Source: Nocardia mangyaensis (lineage in GTDB: Bacteria > Actinomycetota > Actinomycetes > Mycobacteriales > Mycobacteriaceae). Taken from it: a DNA stretch of 64,000 nt. The translations under genes and the position numbers were made by a program. The stretch spans positions 992,001 to 1,056,000 of the forward strand of contig NZ_CP018082.1 in the NCBI RefSeq assembly GCF_001886715.1, given 5' to 3'. Below, piece by piece: positions 13,535 through 17,705 of the stretch. Each line of letters opens with the position of its first letter. Position 1 is the stretch's first letter. The notes below the pieces were generated by a model. The model made no database searches. It saw nothing but the letters and a program-made list of their open reading frames with translations, and had not been told where the DNA came from.

Positions 13535-14683
13535 TCAGCGGTTCTCCCGCGCCAAGCGCATGGTCTCGGTGAGCAGCTTGGCCACCGCGGCGGCCTCGGT
13601 GAGGAAGCCGTCGTGTCCGTCGCGCGAGTGCACGATCTCGAGTCCGGCGCAGCCCGGCAGCCCCTCGGCCAGCTCGGCCTGGGTGTGCAGGGGATAGAGG
13701 CGATCGGAGTCGACACCGCCCACCACGCACGGCACCCGCGTCGAGGCGAGCGCGGCGGCGACACCACCGCGACCGCGACCGATGTCGTGGCGGTTCATGG
13801 CCTCGCTGAGCAGCACATAGGTGGCCGGGTCGAAGCGCTGGACCAGCTTCTCGGCCTGGTGCTCCAGGTAGCTCTGCACCGCGTAGCGGCCACCCTGCCA
13901 CGGGTCCTCGTCGCCCTGGGGGCGATTGGTGAAGCGGTGGTCGAGTTCGCCCTCGGTGCGGTAGGTCAGGTGCGCGATGCGGCGGGCCAGGCCCATGCCG
14001 GTCGTCGGCGCGCGGCCGGTGCCGTGATAGTCGCCGCCCTGCCAGTCCGGGTCGGCCGTGATGACGGCCATCTGGGTGGTCTGGGTGCCGATCTGATCGG
14101 CGGTGGCCCGCGCGCCGACAGCGAGCACCAGCGCCGCCGAGACCCGCTCGGGCTTGTCGATCATCCACTCGAGCACCCGCATGCCGCCCATCGAGCCACC
14201 GACCACCGAGGCCAGGCGCTCGATGCCGAGCACGTCGAGCAGCTGAGCCTCGGCGGTCACCTGATCACGGATGGTCAACTCGGGAAAACGCGCGCCCCAC
14301 GGCTTGCCGTCGGGCGCGAGCGTGGACGGCCCGGTGCTGCCCTTGCAGCCGCCGAGCACGTTGGTGGCGATCACACACCATTCGTCGGTGTCGATCGGCG
14401 CGCCGGGGCCTACCATGCCCTCCCACCAGCCGGGCTGGGCATTGTCGGCACTGGTGATGACGTGCGAGTCACCGGTGAGCGCGTGTTCGACGAGCACCAC
14501 GTTGTCCAGGGTGGGCGAGAGCTCACCCCAGCGTTGCACCGCCAGCCGCACATCGGGGACGACGGCGCCGTTCTCCAGCGCAACCTCCCCGATGGCGACC
14601 ACGCCGAGACGCCCGTCCGGCGGTGGCAGCAGAGCCACTCCGGTGCCGGGACGGGCGATCGGCGATTCGGTGCTCACAGTCAC
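13535..14683 (-). CDS. metX: Homoserine O-acetyltransferase
   Basis: A 382-residue alpha/beta-hydrolase-fold enzyme that acetylates homoserine with acetyl-CoA, the first committed step of methionine synthesis (MetA/MetX of mycobacteria). The nucleophile elbow [14 protein letters not shown] carries the catalytic serine at about residue 157; the LYPLHTQ aspartate region and the [10 protein letters not shown] histidine complete the triad. [14 protein letters not shown] is family-specific. The GTG start overlaps the metC stop by four bases (GTGA), so translation is coupled and both fall under the metC leader. Confidence 0.95.
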
Positions 14684-15996
14684 GTGGTCGCCGCCGCGAA
14701 ACCGGCCCGCAGATCGGCCAGGATGTCGTCGATACCCTCGATGCCCACGGCGAGCCGGACCAGGCCGGGCTTGACGCCCGCGGCCAGCTGCTCCTCCGGT
14801 GTCAACTGCGAATGCGTGGTCGACGCCGGGTGAATCACGAGAGAACGCACATCCCCGATGTTAGCGACATGGCTGTGCAGGCTGAGCGCGTCCACGAACT
14901 TCTTGCCCGCGTCGACGCCACCGGCCAGCTCGAAGGCCACGATCGCACCCGCGCCCTTCGGCGCCAGTTCCTTGGCCCGCGCGTGCCAGGGCGAGGACTC
15001 GAGGCCCGCGTAGTGCACCGTCTCGACGCCGGGCTGCTCGGCGACGAACTTCGCGACCACCTCGGCATTGGCCACGTGCCGCTCGACGCGCAGGCTCAGC
15101 GTCTCGATGCCCTGCGCGATGAGGAAGGCGTTGAACGGCGACACCGCCGCGCCGAGGTCGCGCAGCAGCTGTACGCGAGCCTTGAGCGCGAAGGCGGGCG
15201 CGCCCAGGTCGGCGAAGACCGCGCCGTGGTAGCTCGGGTCGGGCTCGGTGAAGCCGGGATAGCGGGACTTGCCGTCGGCGTCGCGCACGGTCCAGTCGAA
15301 GGTGCCGCCGTCGACGATCACCCCGGCCACCGCGGCGCCGTGGCCGCCCAGGTACTTGGTGGCCGAGTGCACGACGATGTCGGCGCCGTGGGCCAGCGGC
15401 TGGATCAGGTACGGGGTCGCGACGGTGTTGTCGACGATCAGCGGCAGGCCCGCCGCGTGCGCGACACCGGCGATGCCGGGGATGTCGAAGACCGCGCTGC
15501 TCGGGTTGGCGATGGTCTCGCCGTAGAGGGCCTTGGTGTTGGGCCGGATCGCGGCTTCCCACTGGGCGAGGTCGTCGGGGTCTTCGACGAAGGAGACCTC
15601 GATGCCGAGCTTGGGCAGCGAGTAGTGGAACAGGTTGTAGGTGCCGCCGTAGAGGTGCGGGCTGGACACGATGTGGTCGCCCGCGCTCGCCAGGTTCAGG
15701 ATCGCGTAGGTCTCGGCGGCCTGACCGGAGGCCAGCAGCAGTGCCGCGACGCCGCCTTCCAGCGCGGCCACGCGCTGCTCCACCGCGTCCTGGGTGGGGT
15801 TCATGATCCGGGTGTAGATGTTGCCCGGCTCGGCGAGACCGAACAGCGCGGCGGCGTGGTCGGTGTCACGGAAGGTGTAGGAGGTGGTCTGGTAGATCGG
15901 CAGGGCCCGCGCGTTGGTCGCGGCGTCGGGGGCTTGGCCCGCGTGGACCTGCTTGGTCTCGAACGACCAGTTCTCGGGCAGGGTGGAGTTGGACAT
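14680..15996 (-). CDS. metC: O-acetylhomoserine sulfhydrylase (MetC/MetY type)
   Basis: A 438-residue PLP enzyme that makes homocysteine from O-acetylhomoserine and sulfide; it is called MetC in mycobacteria and MetY or MetZ elsewhere. The PLP lysine is in [11 protein letters not shown] (about residue 210). The fold is marked by [31 protein letters not shown] and [13 protein letters not shown]. The ATG at 15996 follows CTGGAG at 8-base spacing. The roughly 190-base leader holds a SAM-IV riboswitch and a Cys-rich leader peptide, both expected to lower expression when product is plentiful. Confidence 0.94.
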
Positions 15997-16032
15997 GGTG
16001 ATGCTCCAGGGGGTTGTTCGCCGGGTATCTCG

Positions 16033-16065
16033 TCAGCTGGGTCGGATCGACGGGCAACAACACAT
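16033..16065 (-). CDS. Poly-cysteine leader peptide MCCCPSIRPS
   Basis: A ten-codon frame, ATG-TGT-TGT-TGC-CCG then SIRPS and TGA. It has AGGAGG five bases before the ATG, a stronger ribosome-binding site than that of metC. Three consecutive Cys codons in a leader upstream of sulfur genes fit the poly-cysteine attenuators described in mycobacteria, where ribosome stalling at low cysteine raises expression downstream. The Cys codons (16054-16062) can pair with 16013-16023, just before the metC ribosome-binding site. It is too short to recognise by similarity; the assignment rests on codons, ribosome-binding site and context. Confidence 0.65.
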   Translation of the reverse strand: MCCCPSIRPS

Positions 16066-16078
16066 GGTGGCCTCCTAC

Positions 16079-16190
16079 GAATGCGCGCTTGCCCTCGACC
16101 TTCGAGGGCCCGGTCATCACCCGGAGCACCCCACCGCAGCTGGAGGGTTGCCGACCAGCGAGCCGGGGCTTGACGCTGGTACTCATGACC
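16079..16190 (-). promoter_or_regulatory. SAM-IV riboswitch upstream of metC-metX
   Basis: Read on the minus strand, the element begins GGTCATGAGTACCAGCGTC and continues with AAGCCCCGGCTCGCTGG, CCGGCAACCCTCC-like sequence, GCGGTGGGGTGCTCCGGG and TGATGACC closing the first stem. It ends with a CCCTCGA-AGG-TCGAGGG hairpin and GCAAGCGCG. This matches my memory of the M. tuberculosis SAM-IV aptamer almost base for base in the core. It binds S-adenosylmethionine and reduces expression of methionine genes. The 3' boundary is approximate. Confidence 0.88.
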
Positions 16191-16198
16191 TTGCCGTC

Positions 16199-16204
16199 AT
16201 GTTA
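16199..16204 (-). promoter_or_regulatory. -10 element of the metC-metX promoter
   Basis: TAACAT (TANNNT type) ends nine bases before the first base of the riboswitch, which puts the transcript start at or just before the aptamer. No convincing -35 is seen, which is common in actinobacteria. Confidence 0.5.
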
Positions 16205-16362
16205 ACCGGACATCTCGCCCGCGCGGAAATTTCTCCCGATTTCGTCGAGAAGATCACTGGTCGGCGCGGTGTGTCGCCGCCGCAGTCCCGCACAGCGGGC
16301 CCTCCCATCGCGGTGAGGTCACTGGCAGCAGTACGCTTGTCTTGTTTGCACCACACGTCCCG

Positions 16363-16391
16363 CAGACAACGCGGGGCATATACGTTGTCTG
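16363..16391. promoter_or_regulatory. Inverted repeat over the icd promoter
   Basis: CAGACAACG and CGTTGTCTG are perfect 9-base arms with an 11-base spacer. The spacer holds CATATA, and a TATACG -10-like hexamer overlaps the right arm, so a bound protein would affect icd transcription. The site is about 80 bases before the icd start. The regulator is unknown; it does not look like the corynebacterial AcnR site. Confidence 0.5.
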
Positions 16392-16472
16392 TTGGAACAG
16401 CTGGGGTCCGCTCACAAGCGTGTTCGCCTGGCCGTGCAATGAGGGCACCATCCTAGGAGGACACGAAGATCC

Positions 16473-17705
16473 ATGTCCAAGATCAAGGTTGAAGGTACCG
16501 TCGTAGAACTCGACGGCGACGAGATGACCCGGATCATCTGGCAGTTCATCAAGGACAAGCTGATCCATCCGTATCTCGACGTGAACCTCGAGTACTACGA
16601 CCTCGGCATCGAGTATCGCGACAAGACAGACGACCAGGTCACAGTTGACGCCGCGAACGCCATCAAGAAGCACGGCGTCGGCGTCAAATGCGCCACCATC
16701 ACCCCCGACGAAGACCGGGTGAAGGAGTTCGGCCTCAAGAAGATGTGGCGCTCGCCCAACGGCACCATCCGAAACATTCTGGGTGGCACCATCTTCCGCG
16801 CGCCGATCATCATCTCCAACGTGCCCCGCCTGGTGCCCGGCTGGACCAAGCCGATCATCATCGGCCGTCACGCCTTCGGCGACCAGTACCGCGCCACCGA
16901 TTTCAAGGTTTACGAGGCGGGTACCGTCACGCTGACCTTCACGCCCGAGGACGGCAGCGAGCCGATCGTGCACGAGGTCGTGAAGATGCCCGCCGACGGC
17001 GGCGTCGTCATGGGTATGTACAACTTCAAGAAGTCGATCGTGGACTTCGCGCGGGCCTCGTTCAACTACGGCCTGCAGCAGAACTACCCGGTGTATCTCT
17101 CCACGAAGAACACCATCCTCAAGGCCTACGACGGCATGTTCAAGGACACCTTCCAGGAAGTCTTCGACGCCGAGTTCAAGGCCGAGTTCGACGCGGCGGG
17201 CCTGACCTACGAGCACCGTCTGATCGACGACATGGTCGCCTCCTCCATGAAGTGGGAGGGCGGCTACGTCTGGGCCTGTAAGAACTACGACGGCGACGTG
17301 CAGTCCGACACCGTGGCCCAGGGCTTCGGCTCGCTCGGCCTGATGACCTCGGTGCTGCTCACCCCGGACGGTCGCACCTGCGAGGCCGAGGCCGCGCACG
17401 GCACCGTCACCCGGCACTTCCGTCAGCACCAGCAGGGCAAGCCGACCTCGACCAACCCGATCGCGTCGATCTTCGCCTGGACCCGCGGCCTCGAACACCG
17501 CGGCAAGCTGGACAACACCCCCGAGGTGATCGGCTTCGCGCAGGCGCTCGAAGACGTCGTCATCAAGACCGTCGAGGGTGGGCAGATGACCAAGGATCTG
17601 GCGCTGCTCGTCGGCGGAGATCAGGGATACCTGAGCACCGAGGAATTCCTCGGCGCCCTGGACGCCAACCTGGCCCGCACGCTGTCCGCCTCTCCGCGTA
17701 TTTAG
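16473..17705 (+). CDS. icd: NADP-dependent isocitrate dehydrogenase
   Basis: A 410-residue enzyme of the dimeric, eukaryote-like type (M. tuberculosis Icd1, Rv3339c), catalysing oxidative decarboxylation of isocitrate to 2-oxoglutarate in the TCA cycle. Family marks are [30 protein letters not shown], the substrate loop [33 protein letters not shown] and [18 protein letters not shown] lies about 12 bases before the ATG. Single gene, with an inverted repeat at its promoter and a strong hairpin about 70 bases after its stop. Confidence 0.96.

Follow-up and report, generated by a model that had tools for sequence, protein, structure and literature searches.

The leader of the metC-metX operon is, on balance, likely to be a two-input RNA control region in which a SAM-IV riboswitch and a short upstream open reading frame (uORF) rich in cysteine codons stand in series. 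The operon lies in the stretch of DNA analysed here (64 kb in length; hereafter the window) and comprises the gene pair that makes homocysteine, the methionine precursor, with metX overlapping metC by 4 nt; the closest named matches to its MetC are from Nocardia. If the two sensors are stacked in this way, a single RNA would balance the end product, SAM, against the available cysteine at the branch where sulfide enters homocysteine. The elements of the locus, listed in the order of transcription, are as follows.

16199..16204, minus strand: -10-like hexamer TAACAT, read from the sequence, its position kept in relatives
16080..16190, minus strand: SAM-IV riboswitch aptamer, full-length match to Rfam RF00634, refound by a whole-genome search
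16135..16138, minus strand: UGCG, P3-loop strand of pseudoknot PK-2, with the pairing deduced from the sequence and the geometry taken from the accessible text of PMC6890682
16087-16084, minus strand: possible alternative and equally long register for the PK-2 3' strand, CGCG
16082..16085, minus strand: probable 3' strand of PK-2, CGCA, 5 nt upstream of the uORF Shine-Dalgarno (SD) sequence
16071..16076, minus strand: uORF SD AGGAGG, read from the sequence
16033..16065, minus strand: uORF encoding MCCCPSIRPS and a stop, 10 codons, ATG at 16065, read from the sequence and from relatives
16054..16062, minus strand: Cys codons TGT TGT TGC, codons 2-4 of the uORF, from the sequence and from relatives
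15997..16032, minus strand: 36-nt gap between the uORF stop and the metC start, holding the weak metC SD GGAG (16007-16004)
14680..15996, minus strand: metC, O-acetylhomoserine/O-acetylserine sulfhydrylase (NCBIfam NF005872, 828.6 bits, cut-off 703)
13535..14683, minus strand: metX, homoserine O-acetyltransferase (NCBIfam NF047917, 587.9 bits, cut-off 475)

The first-pass annotation of this DNA had proposed that the metC-metX leader carries a SAM-IV aptamer, that the aptamer sits at the predicted transcript start, and that an AGGAGG-led uORF encoding MCCCPSIRPS follows directly. The aptamer and the uORF are confirmed, and the placement at the transcript start is very probable. The covariance match (16190-16080) spans the complete model (positions 1-116 of 116) with 108.3 bits against a gathering threshold of 38 (E 5e-19), and it is the sole gathering-level Rfam match within the window. 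The element is therefore classed as a SAM-IV riboswitch, for which SAM binding is predicted. After the aptamer come CGT, AGGAGG (16076-16071), CCACC and the ATG at 16065, giving an SD-ATG spacer of 5 nt.

The hexamer TAACAT ends 8 nt upstream of the aptamer, and this spacing is kept in relatives. Among 153 distinct upstream sequences, the pattern TANNNT ended 7 nt from the aptamer in 51 instances, 8 nt in 84 and 9 nt in 13 (148 in all), and at no other distance more than 11 times. Since the distance is fixed, transcripts very probably start at or beside the SAM-IV aptamer. A consensus promoter scan of 15900-16480 did not pick the hexamer (16204-16199); its one promoter-like site on the minus strand was at 16479-16450, away from the -10 of the aptamer.

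The loci of relatives were collected with MetC as bait in three samples: a genus sample of 98 genomes (93 with a strong MetC match), 80 named MetC records, and a family sample of 201 genomes from 31 genera (a strong match in 193). The family sample supplied 30 matches with loci, to which 80 further regions fetched among the matches listed were added. SAM-IV was found upstream in 171 of the 218 metC loci searched (85/100, 72/100 and 14/18) by covariance model R1, which was built from 27 aptamers, most of them also among those 218 loci; one locus (L137) matched this model at only 35.7 bits. The 171 loci reduce to 164 distinct leaders, upon which the following counts are based.

Under the looser of two SD rules, an SD-led ORF with at least two Cys codons was present in 93 of the 164 leaders against 1.1 expected from dinucleotide shuffles, and one with at least three in 65 against 0.2, where related leaders are counted as separate and the shuffle expectations are not probabilities. 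Frames with at least three of one residue numbered 65 for Cys, 46 for Leu, 37 for Pro and 34 for Arg (the shuffle expectation was obtained for Cys only). Under the stricter rule, the first strong-SD start opened a closed uORF in 100 of the 164 leaders, of which 88 had at least two Cys and 98 had one or more. The 12 that fell short of two were MSRCR (six leaders), MCRSPR (two), MRSCR, MRSYR, MQLSLNHPQT and one longer single-Cys peptide. Of the remaining 64 leaders, 51 lacked a strong SD, and 13 had a first strong-SD start with no stop codon before the stretch ended, the frame probably being metC itself.

The first-pass annotation had made its proposal depend on conservation of the Cys codons and of the SD-ATG arrangement in relatives, and both recur in many genera. 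Of the 22 genera with SAM-IV before metC, 15 include one or more leaders with a 2-Cys uORF (genus tallies leave out the 80 named records). Two of the other seven genera, g21 and g24, carry MSRCR, with its one Cys. In genera g9 (0/7 leaders), g11 (0/4), g13, g17 and g19, SAM-IV stands before metC and a 2-Cys uORF is absent, g13 and g17 being represented by one leader each; these five genera would lend themselves to tracing how the second sensor was gained or lost. In several of the leaders lacking a uORF, the metC SD comes a short distance past the aptamer (for example, L102, L105, L111 and L114). Mycobacterium gastri (L127) and M. ostraviense (L124), which we take to be kin of the M. tuberculosis group, have SAM-IV and no Cys uORF, and this absence may explain why work centred on M. 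tuberculosis missed the arrangement.

Closer to the window the arrangement is more uniform. SAM-IV, a GGAGG-type SD and a uORF beginning MCC are present together in every one of the best 30 of the 93 genus loci, that of the window included. GGAGG itself was seen in 37 of 37 leaders (36 from the genus and one from Antrihabitans), although the search pattern required it. Among 17 named Nocardia MetC loci, seven have SAM-IV, all seven of which have the MCC uORF, and ten lack SAM-IV. Nocardia-type metC copies are of two kinds, having SAM-IV with a Cys uORF or neither (L069-L074, L147-L150). In the 7.3 Mb genome of the window, the pattern GGAGG-N4..9-ATG-TGY-TGY occurs twice, once as the metC leader uORF and once within what by eye is a long open coding-like stretch. 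A narrow MCC pattern run over 394 genomes of the class gave five matches, three of which look genuine (the window and two others of its genus); most relatives would escape so strict a pattern, and the result is a poor guide to breadth.

These counts bear directly on whether the metC leader is an ordinary SAM-IV leader beside which a uORF has arisen by chance. The existence of leaders without a 2-Cys uORF, as in g9 and g11, would fit such an origin. However, the 93 leaders observed against 1.1 expected rule out a chance uORF, and they are joined by the spread over 15 genera and by the control set of metC upstream regions without SAM-IV, in which an SD-led frame with at least two Cys was found in 1 of 46. 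In that control 250 nt of upstream DNA were scanned rather than the aptamer-to-metC interval, one of 47 regions was dropped for want of upstream DNA, one wrongly anchored locus (L164) is included, and the frame of the one positive region (L099) begins 225 nt upstream. We consequently give a chance origin a virtually negligible probability.

The 65 distinct uORF peptides have little in common besides their Cys codons, which are mostly UGU. Within the genus they include MCCCPSIRPS, MCCCRSLFAFR and MCCCG; genus g10 has MCCCLE, MCSCHE, MCCSPP and MCCCRR, Mycolicibacterium has MCMCP and MCRCP, and Aldersonia has MSCCRR. Beyond the Cys codons, sequence and length vary freely, from five codons upward. 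Cys first appears at codon 2 in 83 of the 93 uORFs selected under the looser rule and in 80 of the 98 Cys-containing uORFs under the stricter one. Cysteine makes up 27.7% of post-start residues in the 100 closed uORFs but accounts for 0.78% of the codons across 34 gene-like frames taken from the window, and the UGU:UGC ratio is 229:33 in uORFs against 23:90 in the same 34 frames, a comparison (Fisher test) that sets uORFs of many species against genes of one window. Since Cys is kept in differing contexts and spacings (for example, MCMCP, MCRCP, MCSCHE and MFSHRLCCSRR), it is the meaning of the Cys codon upon which selection seems to act. A putative response to the charging of Cys-tRNA, as proposed in the first-pass annotation, fits both this codon content and its conservation.

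Two other roles for the uORF can be weighed against the same data. The mini-peptide itself might act, for example by binding metal or reporting thiol redox state, as adjacent cysteines can bind metals or form disulfides. Free variation past the Cys codons is easier to reconcile with a decoding signal than with a folded product, and we regard an acting peptide as very improbable. Alternatively, the uORF might merely load ribosomes onto the leader or shield it from Rho, its Cys codons being no cysteine sensor. Riboswitch-controlled uORFs of a similar general kind are described for M. tuberculosis in the accessible portions of PMC11260477 and PMC12810186, and the interval between uORF and metC in relatives is C-rich and G-poor (approximately 40% C and 23% G, n = 88). 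But this role leaves unexplained both the presence of Cys in nearly all closed uORFs (98/100, 80 of them at codon 2) and the reversed codon preference, and it seems to us unlikely.

In the two-input reading that we favour, the transcript would begin at the SAM-IV aptamer, and where SAM is plentiful the closed aptamer would keep ribosomes off the uORF. Where SAM is low, ribosomes would enter the 10-codon uORF and meet Cys at codons 2-4, stalling there if charged Cys-tRNA is scarce, or finishing and leaving if it is ample. Occupancy of the uORF would then set metC-metX output, with the operon going up when SAM and the cysteine pool are both low. Of these steps, the SAM gate on uORF initiation is inferred from the geometry of aptamer and uORF; the stalling is suggested by the codon content, and the direction in which the operon responds follows from the model.

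The other SAM-IV sites bear on the first of these steps. At the loci with rhodanese-like frames, the SD following SAM-IV belongs to the gene, whereas before metC it belongs to the uORF; any gating of ribosome entry by the aptamer would therefore act there on the uORF. The second SAM-IV in the genome of the window (L002, 1501-1617, minus strand) lies directly before AGGAGG and a frame that we take to be rhodanese-like, and can serve as a uORF-free counterpart against which to compare the metC leader. No Cys uORF was seen by eye at 31 other SAM-IV sites, the downstream frames of which are presumably rhodanese-like or aminotransferase class V-like. In some genomes of the genus (L005, L018 and L020), the aminotransferase class V-like protein after SAM-IV has an extra Cys-rich N-terminal stretch of approximately 50 residues, which is absent in L003 and L008. 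In L003-L008, an inverted repeat, GGACUCC(G)...(C)GGAGUCC, was found by eye 0-60 nt past the aptamer; its sequence overlaps the PK-2 3' strand by the final GG of that strand, and it is a possible expression platform.

All 33 selected genus leaders have a uORF start 13-19 nt past the end of the modelled aptamer. PK-2 connects the strand before P3 to the aptamer 3' end, according to the accessible text of PMC6890682. In the window, its probable 3' strand stops 5-7 nt short of the uORF SD and lies approximately 17-22 nt upstream of the start codon. Owing to this closeness, a closed aptamer should hinder initiation at the uORF and a stalled ribosome should in turn hinder closing of the aptamer. 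This strand would lie at the edge of the footprint usual for an initiating ribosome. In the window PK-2 would have only 4 bp, in either of two overlapping registers; in relatives a loop U often goes with a tail A and a loop A with a tail U, while several combinations misfit. In the other 60 selected leaders the uORF starts 15-94 nt past the aptamer end (25 nt or less in 14), and where it is far from the aptamer a direct clash is impossible and another expression platform is needed.

This geometry also allows the two sensors to be conceived as one device, in which a ribosome awaiting Cys-tRNA at codons 1-4 would cover the sequence that closes PK-2. We consider this proposed coupling a doubtful possibility. 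If it were true, cysteine shortage would hold the SAM switch open at any SAM level, and the response of a riboswitch to its ligand would be overridden by the speed of decoding.

How ribosomes on the uORF would affect metC is the step for which structural candidates were sought. No terminator-like site was found in 15900-16480, and consensus folds of the uORF-to-metC regions gave nothing convincing among the leader groups listed. The gap between uORF stop and metC spans 2 to 182 nt across leaders, and therefore there is no fixed stop-start coupling. A translational attenuator, in which the stalled ribosome breaks a helix hiding the metC SD and SAM-IV acts independently, has some appeal in Nocardia-type leaders, where the UGUUGU run can pair with ACAAC or GGCGAC just before the metC SD, the partners differing in sequence between groups (mean z -0.79, n = 30). 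In the other leaders, however, pairing of the Cys run was near chance (mean z -0.37, n = 47), and G/U-rich codons pair with much. Overall, pairing of the Cys run with the pre-metC stretch was weakly better than in shuffles (mean z -0.53) in 77 of the 93 selected leaders, six having been dropped for lack of a metC start and ten for too short a pre-metC stretch. This pairing, attractive by eye in Nocardia-type leaders, was given no evidential weight. Likewise set aside was the idea that a stalled ribosome unmasks the metC SD: predicted opening of the SD by a ribosome on the Cys codons was no greater than in shuffled leaders (77 leaders selected likewise, Wilcoxon p = 0.78), and in the leader of the window the predicted change was slightly negative (0.38 to 0.35). 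Thus, a translational attenuator is in our estimation improbable, and modelling does not support a classical attenuator with alternative structures that hide a terminator or the metC SD.

Because no structural attenuator was found, Rho-dependent termination of the untranslated leader is our guess for the effector that would act between uORF and metC in the two-input reading. Rho sites tend to be C-rich and G-poor. Against this guess, the authors of PMC11260477 report for M. tuberculosis ppe2 that Rho does not explain why expression is lost when the uORF is missing; in the Mbox leaders of that species, termination is Rho-dependent and independent of translation of the conserved uORF, according to the part of PMC12810186 available. 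The smallest uORFs (MCCCG and a stop) place their regulatory codons against the start, unlike textbook attenuators, and hence would have to work in some new way or through a further effector, such as Rho.

Leaders with poly-Cys runs and riboswitch-controlled uORFs have each been published. The first-pass annotation had put forward their combination as new, and a literature search (Canestrari 2020 and most subscription journals lay outside its scope) found no paper describing SAM-IV together with a Cys uORF, so that within the searchable literature the combination is apparently a new variant. The known systems below are described from the portions of the cited papers that were accessible. SAM-IV before an O-acetylhomoserine sulfhydrylase gene has already been reported for M. 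avium (PMC3774663), and the aptamer of the metC leader resembles known members of RF00634 in being full-length, high-scoring and ahead of sulfur-metabolism genes. It differs in that the SD adjoining the aptamer serves a uORF and not the enzyme gene.

Cys-rich short ORFs have several published forerunners: hairpin-less Cys leader peptides were predicted for cys operons in 2005 (PMC1262725), in a study whose accessible text reports no conserved RNA structure before methionine operons, Cys-rich uORFs were detected by profiling in 2015 (PMC4633059), and Canestrari 2020 treats cysteine-responsive leaderless poly-Cys ORFs of mycobacteria. The metC leader has in common with these a short upstream ORF, a run of Cys codons and sulfur genes downstream. 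Unlike the ORFs of Canestrari 2020, leaderless by the title of that paper, its uORF lies approximately 125 nt into the likely transcript and has an AGGAGG, and the accessible portions mention no aptamer alongside the mycobacterial ORFs. In the leaders of PMC1262725 the Cys run is near the stop, whereas in metC leaders it mostly follows the start (codons 2-4 of 10 in the window), although some uORFs of relatives are so short that the run adjoins the stop too.

Outside these, the cysS attenuator uORFC-8-2 of Rhodobacterales (PMC8632094) likewise has tandem conserved Cys codons in a uORF, but these are usually codons 14-15, UGC is preferred, the end is terminator-like, and the accessible text mentions no riboswitch. 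MetL, before metNIQ in Streptomyces lividans (PMC8079986), is a 29-residue peptide ending in RCMCRRMCAF, and so is Cys-rich like several of the uORFs; it is leaderless, methionine-dependent according to its authors, and ahead of a transporter, with no SAM-IV reported in the portion available. The SAM-II metA riboswitch of Sinorhizobium (PMC9373788) is also a SAM switch acting on an SD distant from the true start of a methionine gene, but in a different aptamer class and, as far as the accessible text describes it, without a Cys uORF. A similar layout is found in the B12 (metE, ppe2) and Mbox (pe20) riboswitches of M. tuberculosis, which likewise precede and partly control a translated uORF (PMC11260477 and PMC12810186). 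Those switches have other ligands (B12 and Mg), the accessible text describes no amino-acid-sensing codon run in them, and ppe2 requires a tight stop-start overlap where the metC leader has a 36-nt gap. The metC leader nevertheless has the M. tuberculosis-type layout, with a uORF bearing its own SD between aptamer and gene.
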